This document shows, in pieces, positions 3,961-44,595 of a DNA stretch of 64,000 nucleotides. A program made the position numbers and the translations under genes. Every line of letters starts with the position of its first letter. The stretch's first letter is position 1. The DNA comes from Halogeometricum rufum (lineage in GTDB: Archaea; Halobacteriota; Halobacteria; Halobacteriales; Haloferacaceae). Under the pieces are notes generated by a model that saw only the letters and a list, made by a program, of their open reading frames with translations, did no database searches and had not been told where the DNA came from. The stretch covers positions 1,612,001-1,676,000 of the forward strand of contig NZ_FOYT01000001.1 of NCBI RefSeq assembly GCF_900112175.1. The letters run 5' to 3'.

Positions 3961-4893
3961 TTACTCCTTGACCGCTCCGGCGGTCAGACCGCTGACAATC
4001 TTCTCCTGTGCGACGACGACGAGGATGGCGATGGGGATGACCCCCAGGATGCTCGCCGCCGCCATGAGGTTGTACGACGTGGCGTAGCGTCCCTGATAGC
4101 TGAGGAGCCCCCAGACGATGGTCGCCCAGTTGCGGACTCGCCCGTCGGTCATCAGGAACGCGAAGAAGAACTCGTTGTAGACGGAGATGAACGTCAGCAC
4201 GCCCGCCGTCGCCACGCCGGGGGCGGACAGGGGCATGATGACCTTGAAGAGCGCGCCGAGGCGGGTGTTGCCCTCGACGCGTGCGGCGTCCTCCAGCCCG
4301 TCCGGAATCTGGCTGTAGAACGTCGTGAGGATGAATATCGACAGCGGCATGAACAGCGCCGTGTACGGCAGCACCATCGCTCCCGGCCCGTTGAACAGCA
4401 TCGGGCTGTTGACCTGTCCGACCTGCGGCAGCGTGAAGAACGTTATGTTCGCCGTGAACAGCTCGAACAGCGGCAGCAGGAACGCCGCCGGCGGGAAGTA
4501 CGAGATGGCGAGGAAGACGAGCATCAGCGGTCGCCGGCCCGGGAACTCGAACCGACCGAACGCGTAGCCCGCGAAACTCGCCAGCACCAGCACGATGGCC
4601 GTGGTGACGACGCCGATGACGAGGCTGTTGAAGATGTAGAGGTGGAACGGGACGCGCGTGAACACCGTCACGAACGCCTCGGGGTTGAACCCGTTCGGCA
4701 GCAGTCCCACGTCTATCATGCTGTCGCTGGGCGTCAGCGCCAGCACCGTCAGCCAGTAGAACGGGAACAGTGTCGTGACGAGGAACGCGCCCGTGAGGAT
4801 GTAGAACAGCGCCTTGTACGTCCGCTCGGGGTTCGACATGGAACTGCTCGCCCAGCGCTGAATCGCGTTCCCGTCGGAGCTATCGGTGCTCAT
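3961..4893 (-). CDS. ABC sugar transporter permease, MalG type
   Basis: A 310-residue inner permease with about six hydrophobic membrane segments and the conserved EAA loop (EDAARVEGNTRLGALFKVIMP), which docks onto the ATPase. The long periplasm-facing N-terminal loop and overall length fit the MalG (BPD_transp_1, CUT1) family. I chose the ATG at 4893 (MSTDSSDG), one base after the stop of the upstream permease; an in-frame ATG at 4911 would overlap that gene by 17 bases. It forms the membrane heterodimer with the product of 4895-5881. Confidence 0.92.
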   Translation of the reverse strand: MSTDSSDGNAIQRWASSSMSNPERTYKALFYILTGAFLVTTLFPFYWLTVLALTPSDSMIDVGLLPNGFNPEAFVTVFTRVPFHLYIFNSLVIGVVTTAIVLVLASFAGYAFGRFEFPGRRPLMLVFLAISYFPPAAFLLPLFELFTANITFFTLPQVGQVNSPMLFNGPGAMVLPYTALFMPLSIFILTTFYSQIPDGLEDAARVEGNTRLGALFKVIMPLSAPGVATAGVLTFISVYNEFFFAFLMTDGRVRNWATIVWGLLSYQGRYATSYNLMAAASILGVIPIAILVVVAQEKIVSGLTAGAVKE

Positions 4894-4894
4894 C

Positions 4895-5881
4895 TCAGAG
4901 CCCCCCCGCACCCTGCACGTCGGCGAACTTGACGATGTAGACGGTGACGACGCCGCCGATGAGCGCCGCGGTGACGAACGCGACGGCGGCCGCGGCGGCG
5001 TACCGACTGGTGCTGAACGTCTGGACGACGAGACACGACAGCGACGGCACCGTGCTGCACGACGACACCGTCGTGATGAGCCCGTAGACGCGCATCGCCC
5101 CGATGGTGCGGAACAGCATCGCCACCAGCACCGACGGGAGGACGAGCGGCAGCGTCACCGTCTTGAACGCCTCGAGTTTCGAGGCGCCCGACACCTTCGC
5201 CACGTCGTACAGCGAGCGGTCCACGCTCTGCAACCCGGCGAGGATGATGAGCGCCATGAACGCCGACGTCTTCCACACGTCGGCGACGATGACGATGATG
5301 AGCGAGTCCATGCTGTTGGCCTGCGGCGTCGTCGAGAACAGCCCCAACTGGTGGAGCGGTTCGACGAGGAAGCCCACCGTCGGCTGGAACAGCAGGTAGA
5401 ATATCATCCCCTGGATGACGATGGGAACCGCCCACGGGAGGATGATGGCGACGCGAACCCAGCGCCGGCCGCGGAAGTCCTGATTCAGGATGAGCGCCTG
5501 CCCGAAGCCGATGAGCGTCTCCAGCGTCACGCTCACCACGGTGAAGATGAGCGTGACGGTGACGGCGCTCTTGAACGGCTGGCTCAGGTCGAAGAACGGC
5601 CGCGGGAGCGAGGCGTTCATCTGACCGGTCAGCAGTTCGACGTAGTTCTGCAGGCCGACGAACTGACCCAGACGCTCCGCGCCGTACAGCGAGTTCGCGT
5701 GCAGCGACATCTGGAACGTCCGCGCCAGCGGCCAGAACGCCACGACGGCGAAGATGACGAGCGACGGGGCCAACAGCAGGTAGGCGAACTGGGTGTCGCT
5801 GAGGTTCTCCACCCAGCGTTGCCCGTACCGCACCGGCGAGGACAGGCCGGGACCGCCCGACCGTCCGGTCTCCGTTGACAC
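4895..5881 (-). CDS. ABC sugar transporter permease, MalF type
   Basis: A 328-residue permease with a hydrophobic N-terminal segment (FAYLLLAPSLVIFAVVAFWP) typical of CUT1 MalF/UgpA proteins, six or so membrane helices and an EAA loop (YDVAKVSGASKLEAFKTVTLP). It pairs with the MalG-type permease. A short stretch with two Cys (VVSSCSTVPSLSCLVVQ) lies near the last third, unusual for haloarchaeal proteins but in an extramembrane loop. It starts six bases after the stop of the solute-binding protein gene. Confidence 0.92.
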   Translation of the reverse strand: MSTETGRSGGPGLSSPVRYGQRWVENLSDTQFAYLLLAPSLVIFAVVAFWPLARTFQMSLHANSLYGAERLGQFVGLQNYVELLTGQMNASLPRPFFDLSQPFKSAVTVTLIFTVVSVTLETLIGFGQALILNQDFRGRRWVRVAIILPWAVPIVIQGMIFYLLFQPTVGFLVEPLHQLGLFSTTPQANSMDSLIIVIVADVWKTSAFMALIILAGLQSVDRSLYDVAKVSGASKLEAFKTVTLPLVLPSVLVAMLFRTIGAMRVYGLITTVSSCSTVPSLSCLVVQTFSTSRYAAAAAVAFVTAALIGGVVTVYIVKFADVQGAGGL

Positions 5882-5887
5882 GGGGAC

Positions 5888-7354
5888 TCACCGTCCCCCC
5901 GCCGCGAGTCGGCCTCGGTTCGAAGACTGTTCCTCTCGCTGGGACGCCTCTTCGATGTTCTGAAGCTGTCGTTTGAGGTCTGTCATCGCCTCTGTCGGGG
6001 ACTTGAGCCCGCTGAAACTCGCGTTCGCCTGCTGTGCAATCTTCGCCGACTCCGGCGGCCACGCCACGGTGACGGGTCGCGGGATGGCGTGCGCGACGGA
6101 GTACTTCAACGTCTCGATGTAACGGCCCATCACGGGCACCTCCGCCGCGCGTTCGGAGTCGAACAGCGCCTTCCGCGGCGGGAGGTAGCCCAGCGTCTCG
6201 AACAGCCACAACTGGAACTCCGGGTCGGCCATCGCCCGGAGTATCTCCTTGGACGCCTCCGGTCTGGCGGCGTTCGGGTTCAGCGCCATGTGCCACCCGC
6301 CGAGGGACGACACCGAGCCGCCGTACCCGTCGAACTTCGCCTTCCCGGGCGTCACGCCGTACGGGATGGGCATCACGCCGAGGTCGTCGCCGAACTCCTC
6401 CTCGGCGCCGCTGATGGCGATGGCGTACGGCCAGTTGCGGTGCATGACGGCGTTGCCCGCGGCGAACGGCTTCCGGGAGGACTCCTCCTCCCACTGCAGG
6501 ACCGTCCGCGGGGCGATGTCGCCGGTCATCGAGTCGAGGGCGTTCTCGGCGTCGCCGTCGATGAACGTCCGGACCATCCGCGCCGAGTCCACGACGGGTT
6601 TCGAGTCCGTGGTGACCGGGCGTTCGCCGACGGGACCGAACAGGTTCTCCTTCGCGCCGAAGTACGACCCGCCCCACGACCCGGTGAACTCCCGGAAGTC
6701 ACAGCACGACAGGCCGGCGTACGACTTCCCCTGGAAGGTGAAGCCGTAGGGGTCGTCCCGTTGCGCTTTGACCTCCTTGGCCACCTCCGAGAACGTCTTC
6801 CACGAGATGGGTTCGGTCGCCCAGTTCTCCGAGTCCGGACTGTAGCCGGCCTCTTTCACCCAGTCCTTCCGGTAGAGCATGTTCCCCGTCGTGGGGTACA
6901 GCGGGAGTGCGAACTGGTCGCCGTTCGCCCCCTGCGCCGTCTCGCTGAACGTCTCGAAGTACTCCGACTGCACCATCTCCGCGAGGTCCGGCATCTCCTC
7001 GGAGAGGTTCGTCAACTGCTCGCGCACGATGAACGGAATCGTCCATCCGCTGTCCATCATGAGCAGCGAGGGCTGCGAGAGGTTCGCCGACAGCCACCGG
7101 TTGTACTGCTGCTGTCTGGCGCCCGTCGAGGCTCTGCCGGCGATGACGTCGAGCGAGACGTCCTTCGACAGACCGACCTCGTGGAGTTTCTCCTCCATCG
7201 CCGCCGAGTTGTTCTTGAGGTCCGTGTTGGCCGCGACCTGAACCGCGCCGGACTCCGTCTGCGCCTGCGCGATGCACCCCGAGAGACTCGTCCCCACGGC
7301 GGCGCCGCCCGCGGCCTTCACGAACCGTCTCCGACTGACGTCTCTGTCGGTCAT
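5888..7354 (-). CDS. extracellular solute-binding lipoprotein of a sugar ABC importer (Tat-exported)
   Basis: A 488-residue family-1 solute-binding protein. The start at 7354 is chosen because it gives a compact twin-arginine signal (SRRRFVKAAGG) followed by a lipobox (LSGC) at about residue 28. The protein is therefore probably exported folded by the Tat system and lipid-anchored outside the membrane, the usual arrangement in haloarchaea. The mature part has the mixed alpha/beta sequence and Trp-rich C-terminus (VAWPPESAKIAQQANASFSG) typical of CUT1 binding proteins. The ligand (glucose, trehalose, maltose or other) cannot be read from sequence. First gene of the operon; an in-frame ATG at 7426 lies upstream but would bury the signal peptide. 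Confidence 0.9.
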   Translation of the reverse strand: MTDRDVSRRRFVKAAGGAAVGTSLSGCIAQAQTESGAVQVAANTDLKNNSAAMEEKLHEVGLSKDVSLDVIAGRASTGARQQQYNRWLSANLSQPSLLMMDSGWTIPFIVREQLTNLSEEMPDLAEMVQSEYFETFSETAQGANGDQFALPLYPTTGNMLYRKDWVKEAGYSPDSENWATEPISWKTFSEVAKEVKAQRDDPYGFTFQGKSYAGLSCCDFREFTGSWGGSYFGAKENLFGPVGERPVTTDSKPVVDSARMVRTFIDGDAENALDSMTGDIAPRTVLQWEEESSRKPFAAGNAVMHRNWPYAIAISGAEEEFGDDLGVMPIPYGVTPGKAKFDGYGGSVSSLGGWHMALNPNAARPEASKEILRAMADPEFQLWLFETLGYLPPRKALFDSERAAEVPVMGRYIETLKYSVAHAIPRPVTVAWPPESAKIAQQANASFSGLKSPTEAMTDLKRQLQNIEEASQREEQSSNRGRLAAGGR

Positions 7355-35780: not shown

Positions 35781-38700
35781 TCAGCGGTGCAGAACCCGCG
35801 TTGTGACCGCCAAGAGCGCCGCGAACGCCGCGAGAACGCCGAATCCGGGCGCGCCCGTCTCGGTCGTCTCTGTCTCGTCGGCCGCCGTCGGTGCGGACGC
35901 GTCGCTCGGGTCCGGCGTCGCCGTCCCTCCCGCGTCAGTCCCCGTCGCGGTCGTTCCGGCGGCCTCGTCCTCGGTCGTCGCGGACGCGTCGTCCGCGGCG
36001 TTCTCGGTCGCGTTCTCGGACCCGACGGCGAACACGGAGAACCCGGGCGTGACCGCTTCGTACGTCCCGTTACCGAGCGCAGTCGTGTTCAGCGTCCGCC
36101 ACTCGCCGTCGTGGAACCGATACAGTCGCACCTCGTCGGGCGACACGCCGCGGGCTTCGAGTTTCGAGGCGGAAACCTCGAACGTGATAGTCGCGTTCTC
36201 GACGGCGTCGTCGGTCGTCCCCGCGAGGTCTATCGACACGTAGTCGATGGCGCCGTCGCCCCGGCCGTCTCCGTCCGCGTCGCCCGCGCCGCCGCCGGGG
36301 TTCAGTGCGGGCGTCCCGTCGGGGACCGCGTCGTGCGAGGCGACGGTCACCGAGAGTGCGGCCGCCCCCTCCGAGAGGTTCAGGCCGAGTTCCCGGACCT
36401 GCGACCGTTCGTCCGACCGGTCCGCGTCGGCCGTCGCGTTGCGCCCCGTCGACGCGTTCGCCGATTCGGTCGCGTTCACGCCGTCGGTGGCGTTCGCGGC
36501 CGTCGCCGAGGCGTTCAGGGACGGGATGTGGACGGTGACCGTCTCGTCGGCCGGCGCGTCGGTCACGTTCGCGGCCGCCGCCCGACCGTCCGCCGTGGCA
36601 GTGGCGACCACCGTCGCACCGCCGGCCGTCGCGTTCGTCTCCCGCTCACCGTCCGAATCGCCCGACGAACCGTCGCCGTCGTCAGTATCGCCGCCGCCGT
36701 CGGCAGTCGACCCGTCGGTGTCGCCGGCCGAACCGCCGTCTGACCCCCCGTCACCGGACCCCTCGGTCCCCGACTCGCCGCCGGACGCGCCGATGGCCGC
36801 CGCGTCGGGCAACAGTTGGACCGTGCCCGTGGAGTACGTCGTCGGGAAGCCGACGCGCACGTCGCCGTCCGCGGTCACGTTCGGCGACAGCGAGACGCCG
36901 TCGCCCTTGTACGTCCCGCCGAGCGTACTCGGGTCTGAGACACCCCACTGGTCGAGGAGGGCCGAAGGAACGGTCGCCTCGTACTGACCGGTGTTGTTCC
37001 GCCCGTCCACCGTCTCGTGTGGCGCGCCGAGGTCAACGTTCAGCGTCGGCGACCCGTTCACGAGGCCGGGGTACGGCGCCGTCGCCGACTGAGCGTCGGT
37101 GGCGACGACCATCCCCGAGACGTTGCGCATCGTCGTGGAGCCGTTGTCGACGAACGCGAGCGAGAACATCGGCGTGTAGGCGTGCGTCGCCACGTCCTCG
37201 CTCGCGCTCAGGTCGTCCCACCCGGACACCGAGGCAGGGCCGTCGACCTTGTACGCGGCGTCTATCGGTTGCGCGACGACGGTGACCTCGTAGCCGTCGG
37301 AGCGGTTCACCACGTCCCACGACACGTCGTGCGCGGTGGCGACGAGAATCGAGGGTTCGTACGAGTGCGGCACGTCCAGCACCACCTCGAAGCGACTCGT
37401 CTCGTCGAGTCCCGACCCGTTCAGGTTCTGGGGCCGGTCGCTCCCCGGCGCCTCGTAGGTGAGGTCGAACTGGATCAGTCCGCCGTCGTCGGTGGGCGCG
37501 ATGGTACTCGTACCGAGCGCCGAGGTGTTCGCCGCGCCGCCGACGTGCGTGAGCGAGGTCATCTCGACCAGGGGTTCCAGCGTCACCGTCGGCCCCTCGT
37601 ACCCGCCCGTCGAGAGCGCGTACGCCTTCGACGTGTCGAAGTGCGACGGGAACGTGACGTTCACCGACCGCTGAGCCGACTGGCCGGGACGGACGGTGAC
37701 CGTCGCGGTTCCGACGGGCGTGGTCCGGAACGCGCCCGGGTAGAGGGAGACGGTGTGGTTCTCCACTGTCTCGCCGGTGTTGTCCACGCGGACGGTCACC
37801 TCGTGCGTCCTGCCCCGCGTGAGGTTCGTCTCGGGAACGCTCACGAGTCCGACGGAGGTGTTGCCGACGACGGTCACCGTGGTCATCGAGAACGACCCGG
37901 AGACGCGTTCACCCGTGGAGTCGTTCACGACGCTCGCCTCGACGCGGTACGACCCGGCGGCCGCCCGCGCGGGCAGCGTCAGCGTCGCCGTCCCGTTCGC
38001 CGTCCCGAGGTCGGCGTCGAACGCGAGGAGGCCGTTCGGTCCCGAGAGCGACAGGTTCGCGTCGGCGGCGGTGACGGCCCCCGTGAGGTTGAACCGGACC
38101 GGCACGGAGACGGCGTCGCCACGCATCGCGGTGACGTCCGCCGGCGAGGCGACGCAGGGCGACCCGTACGCCGCGGGGCAGTCGCCCGCGACCGAGGGCG
38201 TCGGCGCCGCGTCGGAGACGGTGACCGTCGTCGGCGCCTCGTCGTTGACGGTGAAGTTCACCGTCTCGCCGGCGTACTGTTCGGTGTAGACGACCGGGAG
38301 TTGCACCGTCTTCACCGCGCCGGCGCCGAGGTCCACGAGCGAGACGTTCGCCGCGTCGGCGTCGCCGGTCTCGGGGTAGGCCGCGACGCGGAACGTCGTC
38401 GCCGCGCCCCCGGTGTTGTTCAGCGTGACGGCGACAGTCGTCTCGACGCCGGGCAACACCGTCGTCGAGGCGAGCGAGTACGACTCGATTCGCACCGACG
38501 ACGTGGTGTTCACCACGCCGACGGCCGCGCTCTCGAAGCGGGACTCGTCGCCGTCGTGGCCGCGAACCCAGACGCGCCGGTCGCCGGCGACGGCGTCCAC
38601 GGTGTCGGCGAACGCCGACCCGGGGCCGAACGTGAGGTTTCGCCGGCCGGCGTCCGCGGTCAGGTCGGCGTCGTAGTCGACGGCGAACCCGGAGTCGTTC

Positions 38701-38939
38701 TGGAGCCAGATGGTCGTGTTCGCCGGGTCGGACGCGCCGGTGACGTTGTACGCGACGGTGACGTTGGCGTCGGTTCCGGGCGTCCATGCCGTCTCCGTCG
38801 CGTTCACGCCGGGGGCGTCTGCGGGAGCGGTCGGCGTCGTCCCGTTCGCGGACGCGAACCCGACGAACGCGACGGGGGTGCTAGACGAGAGCAACAACAG
38901 CGCGACCAGTAGCGCGGCCGTGCGGTGTGGCGATTTCAT
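35781..38939 (-). CDS. large PGF-CTERM surface glycoprotein-like protein
   Basis: A 1052-residue secreted protein. The start at 38939 gives a Sec signal peptide (MKSPHRTAALLVALLLLSSS). The exterior is rich in Thr, Asn and Asp, with many N-x-S/T sites and repeated CARDB/Ig-like beta modules (TVTLNNTGGAATTFRVAAYP, RVDNTGETVENHTVSLYPG). A Gly/Asp/Ser linker (about residues 710-770) precedes a PGF-pre-PGF-like domain (LYRFHDGEWRTLNTTALG, then TPGFSVFAVG). The C-terminus is a PGF-CTERM signal: PGF, a hydrophobic helix and basic VLHR, processed by archaeosortase ArtA with lipid attachment. The function on the cell surface is unknown. Confidence 0.88.
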   Translation of the reverse strand: MKSPHRTAALLVALLLLSSSTPVAFVGFASANGTTPTAPADAPGVNATETAWTPGTDANVTVAYNVTGASDPANTTIWLQNDSGFAVDYDADLTADAGRRNLTFGPGSAFADTVDAVAGDRRVWVRGHDGDESRFESAAVGVVNTTSSVRIESYSLASTTVLPGVETTVAVTLNNTGGAATTFRVAAYPETGDADAANVSLVDLGAGAVKTVQLPVVYTEQYAGETVNFTVNDEAPTTVTVSDAAPTPSVAGDCPAAYGSPCVASPADVTAMRGDAVSVPVRFNLTGAVTAADANLSLSGPNGLLAFDADLGTANGTATLTLPARAAAGSYRVEASVVNDSTGERVSGSFSMTTVTVVGNTSVGLVSVPETNLTRGRTHEVTVRVDNTGETVENHTVSLYPGAFRTTPVGTATVTVRPGQSAQRSVNVTFPSHFDTSKAYALSTGGYEGPTVTLEPLVEMTSLTHVGGAANTSALGTSTIAPTDDGGLIQFDLTYEAPGSDRPQNLNGSGLDETSRFEVVLDVPHSYEPSILVATAHDVSWDVVNRSDGYEVTVVAQPIDAAYKVDGPASVSGWDDLSASEDVATHAYTPMFSLAFVDNGSTTMRNVSGMVVATDAQSATAPYPGLVNGSPTLNVDLGAPHETVDGRNNTGQYEATVPSALLDQWGVSDPSTLGGTYKGDGVSLSPNVTADGDVRVGFPTTYSTGTVQLLPDAAAIGASGGESGTEGSGDGGSDGGSAGDTDGSTADGGGDTDDGDGSSGDSDGERETNATAGGATVVATATADGRAAAANVTDAPADETVTVHIPSLNASATAANATDGVNATESANASTGRNATADADRSDERSQVRELGLNLSEGAAALSVTVASHDAVPDGTPALNPGGGAGDADGDGRGDGAIDYVSIDLAGTTDDAVENATITFEVSASKLEARGVSPDEVRLYRFHDGEWRTLNTTALGNGTYEAVTPGFSVFAVGSENATENAADDASATTEDEAAGTTATGTDAGGTATPDPSDASAPTAADETETTETGAPGFGVLAAFAALLAVTTRVLHR

Positions 38940-38994
38940 CGATAGCCGATAGAGAAAAATCAGCCACTTCAACGTTTTCGAACCGGTATCAAAC

Positions 38995-42411: not shown

Positions 42412-42448
42412 GTCGGTCGAAATCGATACGCCGTGGTACCACGTCCGA

Positions 42449-42459
42449 AATGTTTACTA
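42449..42459 (+). promoter_or_regulatory. probable TATA box of the regulator-subtilase operon
   Basis: AATGTTTACTA lies 24-34 nt before the ATG at 42483 in an AT-richer spacer of 71 bp, as expected for leaderless transcription. Confidence 0.55.
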
Positions 42460-42482: not shown

Positions 42483-43115
42483 ATGTCTGGGTTGCTACCG
42501 TCTGACGCGGACGTCACCGACGCCGACGCCGAGTCCGACTCGGACGCGAACGGTGACCTCCGCGTCCTCTCGCTCGACGACGACGAGGCGGAGCAACTCA
42601 TCGGGTGTCTCTCCTCGGACACCGCACGCGAGACGTTCGCCGCCCTCCAGCGCGACCCCTCGACCGCCTCGGAACTGGCGGACGCGGTCGACACGTCGCT
42701 CCAGAACGTCCGGCACCACCTCGACAACCTCCGCAGCGCCGGCCTCGTCCGCATCGCCGACACGCGCTACTCGGTGAAAGGGCGCGAGATGAAGGTGTAC
42801 GCGCCGACGCAGGACTCGCTGGTCGTCTGCGTCGGGAGCACGGAGGACAAGGACTCGTTCCTCGACGGACTGGGCCAGTACGTCGGCGCGGGCGCGGCCC
42901 TCGCCGTCGCCGCGGTGGCCGTCCAGACGCTGTTCGGTGCCGGCGTCGCGGACCTCGGCGGCCCGGCGACGACGCCGCGCGTGGCCGACGGCGTGACCGG
43001 CGGTGCCGAACCGGTTCTCGGCCTCCTCCCGCCGGGCGTCGCCTTCCTCGCCGGCGGCTTACTCGTCCTCGGCGTCCTCCTGACCGTTCGCGCGTACGGG
43101 TCGCGCGTGAAGTGA
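42483..43115 (+). CDS. membrane-anchored winged-helix (ArsR-like) regulator
   Basis: A 210-residue protein. An acidic, disordered start (residues 1-30) precedes a winged-helix domain (LIGCLSSDTARETFAALQRDP, recognition helix SLQNVRHHLDNLRSAG, wing RIADTRYSVKGREMKVYAP). Two membrane helices follow (about 135-155 and 182-203), with a 25-residue outward loop between them. DNA binding by a membrane-tethered protein suggests release or conformational signalling. One base separates its stop from the start of the subtilase-like gene, so the two are surely co-translated. Homologues of this arrangement exist in haloarchaea but lack a described role. Confidence 0.85.
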   Translation: MSGLLPSDADVTDADAESDSDANGDLRVLSLDDDEAEQLIGCLSSDTARETFAALQRDPSTASELADAVDTSLQNVRHHLDNLRSAGLVRIADTRYSVKGREMKVYAPTQDSLVVCVGSTEDKDSFLDGLGQYVGAGAALAVAAVAVQTLFGAGVADLGGPATTPRVADGVTGGAEPVLGLLPPGVAFLAGGLLVLGVLLTVRAYGSRVK

Positions 43116-43116
43116 G

Positions 43117-44595
43117 ATGCGTCCGCGCGGGCAGACCACGGTGCTGGTCGTGACCGTGCTGTTGCTCGTCTCGACGGCGGTTCCGGTCAGCGTGTTCCTC
43201 ACCGGCGGCACCATCGACCCGACGACGGGCGACGACGTGCCGACGATAGAGACCGCCGACGCGTCGGACGCCCCCGACGCCGGCGACGTCGAGACGAGTC
43301 GGGAGGCGCGCCAGCGCCAGCGCATCCGCGAGCGCATCGACGTCGTCGACCAGCACGACGCCCTCCAGCGAGTCGGCGCGTTCGAGGCGCACACGCACGG
43401 CATCACCGGCGAGGGCGTCACCGTCGGCGTCGTCGGGCGGTCGTTCGACGCCGACGCGGAGAGCGTCGCCACGCACGTCGCCGACCACGAGCGGTTCGGC
43501 GGCCGACTGCGGCCGTACCGGGACACCGCCCACGGCACCGCCGTCGCCGAAATCGTCGCCGAGACGGCGCCCGAGTCGGAACTGTACCTCGCCGCCGTGG
43601 GGTCGGAGCCGACGACCGACCGGTACGACGACGCCGTGCGCTGGCTGGTCGCCAACGACGTGGACGTCGTCGTCGACTCGGGGAGCTACTTCCCGCGGAC
43701 GGCGAACGCCTCGGCGAACCTCTCGCGGACGGCGCAGTACGCCATCGACCACGGGGCCATCTACGTCACCTCCGCCGGCAACTACGCGGGCCACCACTGG
43801 TCCGGCGACGGCACCGCCGCGGGGTGGGTGAACTTCTCGGCGACCGACCAGGCGAACTACCTCGGGGAGGGCACCGTCTCCGGTCGGGTGTCGCTCCGCG
43901 CGCAGTGGGACACCGCGGCCGACTACGACCTGTACCTCTACCGCGACCTGCCGGGGTCGGACGACCCGGTGGTGGCGAAGTCGACGCGGCGTTCCCGCGG
44001 CGGCATGGAGGCGATAGACGTTGCCGTCCCCGAGGGCCACTACTACGTCGCCCTGTACGCGCGCGAGGGCGTCGCGTCGCCGGGGACGGTGCAGTTGTTC
44101 TCGGCTCGCCACCGACTGGGGAACACCGACGCCGCGGGGAGCGTCGTCGCGCCGACGACGGGGCACGGCATCATCACCGTCGGAGCCATCGGGTCGCACG
44201 GGTCGGTCCGGTCGTACAGTTCGCTCGGGCGCGACGGGTCGGTGGACCTCGCCGCGCCGGACGGCGTCGAGACGGACTCCGTCGGCGCGTTCTACGGCAC
44301 CTCCGCGGCGACGCCGTTCGTCGGCGGCGCGGCCGCCCTCGTCGCCTCGCAGGGCAACCTCACGCCCGCGCAGACGGAGTTCCTCCTCGAACGGACGAGT
44401 CGAACCGGGGACCTGGACGCCTACGCCGCGGCGTCGGCGGCGAGGCGACCGTTCGACGTGCCCGAGTCGGCCGTCACCGGCGCGCCGGGCGACGGCAACT
44501 GGACCGGCGGCGGCGCGAACGTGTCCGACCCCGTCGCACCGTCCGGCGTGAACGCGTCCGCCGCCGGGGAGGCGTCGGAGGCGCGGGCGCCCTGA
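43117..44595 (+). CDS. membrane-anchored S8 subtilase-like protein lacking the catalytic Asp
   Basis: A 492-residue protein with an N-terminal helix (residues 8-30; signal or anchor). The subtilase fold keeps His139 (AHGTAVAEIV), oxyanion Asn222 (TSAGNYAG) and Ser396 (YGTSAATPFVGGAAALV). At the first triad site the usual V-x-V-(I/L)-D-T-G reads VGVVGRSFD, with Gly107 in place of Asp; Asp111 is four residues later. A beta-rich, PPC-like insert (about 235-330) splits the catalytic half. It may be inactive, use Asp111, or be a binding protein. Co-translated with the upstream regulator. Confidence 0.8.
   Translation: MRPRGQTTVLVVTVLLLVSTAVPVSVFLTGGTIDPTTGDDVPTIETADASDAPDAGDVETSREARQRQRIRERIDVVDQHDALQRVGAFEAHTHGITGEGVTVGVVGRSFDADAESVATHVADHERFGGRLRPYRDTAHGTAVAEIVAETAPESELYLAAVGSEPTTDRYDDAVRWLVANDVDVVVDSGSYFPRTANASANLSRTAQYAIDHGAIYVTSAGNYAGHHWSGDGTAAGWVNFSATDQANYLGEGTVSGRVSLRAQWDTAADYDLYLYRDLPGSDDPVVAKSTRRSRGGMEAIDVAVPEGHYYVALYAREGVASPGTVQLFSARHRLGNTDAAGSVVAPTTGHGIITVGAIGSHGSVRSYSSLGRDGSVDLAAPDGVETDSVGAFYGTSAATPFVGGAAALVASQGNLTPAQTEFLLERTSRTGDLDAYAAASAARRPFDVPESAVTGAPGDGNWTGGGANVSDPVAPSGVNASAAGEASEARAP

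Follow-up and report, generated by a model that had tools for sequence, protein, structure and literature searches.

Results

A regulator gene and a subtilase gene lie one base apart

We analysed a 64,000-nucleotide stretch of the Halogeometricum rufum genome (the window; positions 1,612,001 to 1,676,000 of contig NZ_FOYT01000001.1), to which all coordinates below refer unless another contig is named. Its forward strand encodes a putative membrane-tethered regulator, here called REG, followed by a membrane-anchored protein of the subtilase fold, here called S8. REG and the region upstream of it comprise the following features.

42445..42459, + strand: promoter-like element CCGAAATGTTTACTA, BRE/TATA-like, 23 bases before the REG start
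42483..43115, + strand: REG, membrane-tethered ArsR-type winged-helix regulator, 210 aa (profile match, AF2, Foldseek)
42561..42836, + strand: winged-helix DNA-binding domain of REG, aa 27-118 (profile, alignment, AF2)
42840..42956, + strand: long helix 1 of REG with a membrane segment, aa 120-158 (AF2, hydropathy)
42957..43031, + strand: inter-helix loop of REG, aa 159-183, predicted to lie outside the cell
42975-42989, + strand: P165-R166-x-x-D169 motif within this loop (REG alignment)
43032..43109, + strand: membrane helix 2 of REG, aa 184-209, with PPGxxFLAGG (alignment, AF2)

REG was matched by the HTH_20 profile with 46.9 bits (cut-off 27) and by HTH_5 with 28.4 bits (cut-off 22), while its scores against the NCBIfam SdpR and metalloregulator models were far below their cut-offs. 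The AF2 model consists of a winged helix that ends near residue 118, a helix from 120 to 158, a loop and a second helix from 184 to 209, and its top Foldseek match is the ArsR homologue 1uly. By homology, REG is a member of the ArsR superfamily. Invariant positions of the winged helix are T61-A-S, Q74-N, H79, K99-G and E102-M. A CCGAA..GTTTA block recurs at the same upstream distance in several genera, in most family members whose REG begins with MSGLLPS; the element at 42445-42459 suggests a leaderless archaeal promoter for REG.

The second gene and its structural features are as follows.

43117..44595, + strand: S8, membrane-anchored subtilase-fold protein, 492 aa (profile, AF2, Foldseek)
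43141..43197, + strand: N-terminal membrane helix or signal anchor of S8, aa ~9-27 (hydropathy; AF2 helix 5-21)
43837..44106, + strand: beta-sandwich insert in the subtilase domain, aa ~241-330 (AF2 strands)

S8 scored 69.9 bits with the Peptidase_S8 profile (PF00082; cut-off 21.8), and its AF2 model has a mean pLDDT of 84.8, exceeding 90 in the core. The Foldseek matches listed are subtilases, with TM-scores, by target length, of up to 0.81; the top match is CspB (4I0W), which contains a jelly-roll insert, followed by subtilisins that include engineered anion-triggered ones. The strands of the beta insert were modelled between aa 247 and 329, and its likeness to the PPC profile is weak, below the cut-off (E=0.064). 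The earlier note, which was made from the bare sequence, had described a DNA-binding domain fused to two membrane helices, followed one base later by an S8-fold protein with an N-terminal membrane helix, and the profiles, models, hydropathy and coordinates bear out both descriptions.

At the junction, the REG stop codon (TGA, 43113-43115) is separated from the S8 start codon (ATG, 43117) by a single g at 43116, a spacing from which co-translation of the two genes appears likely. The corresponding gaps in pairs of the Haloferacaceae type range from -4 to +117 bases. Pairwise dN/dS values of 0.16-0.41 for S8 and 0.08-0.30 for REG indicate purifying selection on both genes, which rules out a sequencing error or a decaying gene; S8 evolves faster than REG.

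The gene pair is conserved among haloarchaea

A search for related loci that started from the single sequence returned only one real relative, in Halogeometricum limi. Of the 170 genomes searched family-wide, 69 contain S8 relatives. All 49 close Haloferacaceae loci have REG immediately before S8, and 18 further loci in other families have the same arrangement, so that REG precedes S8 at 67 of 67 loci of this kind (type A). In a second lineage, comprising 21 loci, S8 lies upstream of REG (type B). H. rufum itself carries a pair of the latter type on another contig (G000:C2:668748-669944, within the locus L153, G000:C2:664000-675000), where S8 occupies locus positions 4758-6092 on the minus strand with REG next to it on the same strand; this S8 has an intact D/H/N/S set, and the loop of its REG contains a different conserved motif, EPAS.

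When 392 haloarchaeal genomes were sampled, the strongest full-length REG matches came from 47 genomes, and the strongest S8 matches from the same 47 (the two lists were matched by eye). The wider REG-like family is found in 363 of the 392 genomes; as it is nearly universal, the partnership with S8 is a speciality of two branches. Judged by this co-occurrence, the REG-S8 pair is a real, conserved haloarchaeal module. One candidate for a natural fusion of the two proteins was rejected: at L051 (G051:C1:2150800-2157900) both lie in one frame of 537 codons, but this frame breaks again inside S8, and the single frame is likely a sequence error in a genome that is about 79% complete.

The REG loop motif follows the pairing

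Type A, type B and unpaired REG proteins have in common the winged helix and two membrane helices, with PG-x-x-F in the second. What sets the three groups apart is the inter-helix loop. The pattern P-R-x(1,2)-[DE] occurs in the loop of 62 of the 67 type-A pairs versus none of 26 unpaired paralogues, whose loops are mostly longer and of low complexity, and both R166 and D169 are invariant among the 49 paired REG proteins that were aligned. Type-B loops contain another conserved motif, mostly G/E-P-A-S. Because type A, type B and unpaired proteins also form clades in the REG tree, the motif tracks ancestry as well as pairing, and its distribution does not amount to a set of independent events. 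It is nonetheless the outcome expected if S8 touches the loop.

REG membrane helices and S8 are missing together

The conserved type-A neighbourhood has the order NnrD (on the opposite strand), MFS transporter, REG, S8 and Rad3-like helicase. Seven genomes from three other genera (L158, L174-L179) lack S8 at this locus, and their REG is only about 125-150 aa long, without membrane helices. The flanks are kept, with NnrD and/or the MFS transporter on one side and the helicase on the other; REG stops just past the winged helix and thus retains its DNA-binding part. In the REG tree the shortened forms fall inside type A in two places, at weak resolution. A single deletion per lineage, over the 3' end of REG and the whole of S8, could account for the joint loss. 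The joint loss thus establishes that both parts can be dispensed with together, but not in which order they went.

S8 lacks the catalytic Asp and keeps the other active-site residues

The active-site positions of S8 are as follows.

43435..43437, + strand: Gly107, codon GGG, at the position of the catalytic Asp32 of subtilisin
43531..43533, + strand: His139, at the position of the catalytic His64, invariant in 89/89 relatives
43534..43536, + strand: Gly140, the residue after His139, Gly in Halogeometricum and in all members with Asp107 (D107 members)
43780..43782, + strand: Asn222, at the position of the oxyanion-hole Asn155, invariant
44302..44304, + strand: Ser396, at the position of the catalytic Ser221, invariant

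Position 107 is Gly in 53 and Asp in 36 of the 89 S8 relatives. The Asp column lies in VGVIDSGF or VGVVDVTGF in the 36 and in VGVIGSGF or VGVVGRSF in the 53; the window protein reads VGVVGRSF where D relatives read VGVIDSGF. The best PDB sequence match of S8 is 6UBE, an azide-triggered engineered subtilisin, and the aligned stretch of that enzyme, VAILGTGID, also has Gly. MAFFT had shifted the D of one paralogue (L002) into a gap, and this sequence was read by eye. The earlier note had named His139, Asn222 and Ser396 as kept and Gly107 as standing at the Asp position, and the alignment confirms each of these residues; it had also held that homologues with a normal Asp motif there would reveal a misalignment. 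Such homologues exist, yet the natural relatives with D in the same column rule out that Gly107 was misaligned and point to a complete Asp-His-Ser protease as the ancestor of the family.

H, N and S are all kept in 53 of the 53 members with Gly107 (G107 members). These three are among only 21 of 338 columns that are invariant in the 53 proteins; the chance that three named columns are all invariant is about 2e-4 if relatedness is ignored. By homology S8 is a member of the subtilase family, and without the catalytic Asp it is not a canonical active protease.

On the best tree, built like the others from single genes, Asp107 was lost several times: in the Haloferacaceae clade, in a second family (L114-L116), and in L144 and L148, two single cases within the lineage of reversed gene order. 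Most bootstrap trees place L022, the only Haloferacaceae member with Asp107, within the glycine clade. A single loss of Asp107 was not rejected, however (AU p = 0.467); L022 (D107/G140) may have kept the ancestral state instead of having reverted to it, and a reversal that would prove compensation is not established.

An Asp beside the catalytic His accompanies most Gly107 proteins

The motif HGT, which includes His139, is changed to HDT (Asp140) in 43 of the 53 G107 relatives and in 0 of the 36 D107 members. Combined, positions 107 and 140 are G/D in 43, D/G in 36, G/G in 10 and D/D in none of the 89 proteins. Asp140 has one origin, in one clade, and its association with Gly107 does not represent many independent events; a sign test on the co-change of the two positions had too few independent pairs in this sample. 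Asp140 probably replaces the lost Asp107, in space and charge, in most Haloferacaceae.

Halogeometricum S8 has neither acid (G107/G140). Together with L039 and L049/L050, Halogeometricum seems to have lost Asp140 after it arose, so the window protein is probably a secondary G/G case. We also looked for an alternative acid common to the G/G members. Most of them have a D one to three residues before the His, but this is common in D107 relatives too, and the candidate was rejected.

Discussion

Our preferred reading, which we hold with middling confidence, is that REG and S8 form a two-gene transmembrane module in which S8, an extracytoplasmic sensor derived from a protease, acts on the loop of REG. 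REG would be a helical hairpin in the membrane, with the winged helix inside the cell and the short conserved loop outside. S8, with its N-terminal helix as the anchor and its subtilase domain exposed on the outer side, would recognise this loop and most likely still cleave it, slowly and in a regulated manner. A cut in the loop would free or inactivate the winged helix, either directly or via a second, intramembrane cut; genes for M50 site-2-type proteases, which could make this second cut, are present at four loci of the H. rufum genome that are not linked to the REG-S8 pair. In most Haloferacaceae Asp140 would be the residue that stands in for Asp107, while in Halogeometricum and a few others cleavage may be weak and aided by a brine anion or another acid, or S8 may only bind.

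The conserved pairing, the pair-specific loop motif and the joint loss strongly support the linked transmembrane pair that the earlier note had proposed. That note had left S8 as either a binding module or a modified protease. The latter is favoured, because no G107 member has changed H, N or S and most of them gained Asp140.

The binding role in its pure form would make S8 of the G107 clade a pseudoprotease that senses a ligand or peptide outside the cell and binds the REG loop without cutting, like Clostridioides difficile CspC. The loss of the catalytic Asp in 53 of 89 relatives, the empty position 140 in Halogeometricum, the appearance of CspB and CspA, likewise with a beta insert, among the best fold matches and the faster change of S8 than of REG all fit this idea, which we nevertheless judge rather unlikely. 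CspC lacks His and Ser (T170, G485) but retains Asp (PMC6636752), the reverse of the pattern in S8: H139 and S396 are present, and no G107 member departs from His, Ser or the oxyanion Asn; in addition, most of these members gained Asp140, and members with an intact triad use the same gene pair. A cleaving S8 could also be the natural counterpart of an anion-triggered D32G subtilisin, that is, a slow, salt-tuned site-1 protease served by chloride or another anion in the G/G members or by the moved Asp140 elsewhere. This specific version is improbable. Haloarchaea live in habitats with molar chloride, and since D32G subtilisin is activated by anions, an exogenous anion is a serious option for the G/G members. 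The D32G enzyme is an anion-dependent protease that responds to nitrite and weakly to formate and chloride at 10 mM; for the engineered designs as a group, azide is a trigger as well (PMC7935941). If an anion supplies the missing acid, S8 would be a sensor of anions or salinity.

Two further explanations dispense with an action of S8 on REG. It is quite improbable that REG simply represses its own operon and is held at the membrane by a partner in the manner of SdpR/SdpI, with S8 acting on other extracellular proteins and the pairing reflecting autoregulation. Such a role would suit the weak ArsR/SdpR matches of REG, the conserved promoter-like element of its own and the one-base gap to S8, but it predicts neither a REG loop that is conserved only in paired members nor REG membrane helices that vanish with S8 at the same locus, and the pairing holds despite the reversed order of type B. 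As for a degenerating protease that travels in the operon but is functionally unconnected with REG, an idea for which the several losses of Asp might speak, the purifying selection on both genes, the strict pairing across families and the invariant H, N and S leave it hardly credible.

The closest architectural parallel to our preferred reading is the SREBP system of site-1 protease (MBTPS1/SKI-1) and site-2 protease. SREBP is a membrane transcription factor with two membrane helices, an N-terminal DNA-binding domain and a short outside loop, a layout that is also predicted for REG. Its partner is a membrane-anchored S8 subtilase with Arg recognition; S8 is predicted to be anchored as well, and the REG loop contains an Arg. 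Site-1 protease cuts the luminal loop of SREBP and recognises the motif RX(L/I/V)Z (PMC11231238). The loop motif of REG, PRVGD, does not fit this consensus, and the systems differ further in that REG has a winged helix instead of a bHLH domain, its gene forms an operon with that of S8, the anchor of S8 is N-terminal and its Asp position is Gly107. The likeness is one of architecture; we claim homology for S8 only.

Among subtilases, the engineered anion-triggered subtilisins (D32A/D32G; 3BGO, 3F49, 6UBE), which are best or near-best matches of S8 in both sequence and fold, have the same substitution at the same position and also keep His, Ser and Asn. They are laboratory designs, whereas the change described here is natural and usually accompanied by Asp140. 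The Csp proteases and pseudoproteases (CspB, CspA, CspC) share with S8 the subtilase fold and an inserted beta domain, which does not imply homology of the inserts, and are examples of subtilases that serve in signalling although their active sites are altered; they have no DNA-binding partner. On the side of REG, the winged helix is common to the ArsR family including SdpR of the SdpR/SdpI pair, but ArsR and SdpR have no membrane hairpin. ArnR and ArnR1 of Sulfolobus share with REG an N-terminal helix-turn-helix combined with membrane helices; we know of no S8 partner for them. These archaeal membrane-bound one-component regulators are reported to be phosphorylated by kinases (PMC13286277). 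The Haloferax cell-shape regulators were considered and are unrelated to the pair.

Our literature search for a description of the REG-S8 pair found none; to our knowledge, neither this combination nor a natural subtilase family that lacks the triad Asp and has one beside the catalytic His has been described. If our reading is true, archaea would control a membrane-tethered transcription factor through a subtilase devoted to it, as animals do in regulating lipids. The S8 family is moreover a natural one in which the acid of the triad was lost, the rest kept and an acid apparently arose next to the His, and it offers a natural test of the relocation of catalytic residues and of near-dead proteases in signalling. 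Both REG and S8 are amenable to knockout and expression in standard haloarchaeal strains.

Additional observations

The order-wide regulator family of 363 of the 392 haloarchaeal genomes combines a winged helix with two membrane helices and has PPG-x-x-FF in helix 2; we found no functional description of it in the literature. In one family (f17), giant frames of 2,000-3,900 codons with an S8 domain are found no more than about 10 kb from REG-like genes (L171, G279:C4:537614, G229:C1:1261698, G294:C1:1123024 and G325:C1:3172064), which is perhaps a third kind of association. Elsewhere in the window, the minus strand contains at 35781-38972 a frame of 1063 codons with a signal-like start, an acidic tail rich in Thr, Gly and Asp and a C-terminal membrane helix; its product is probably a surface protein.
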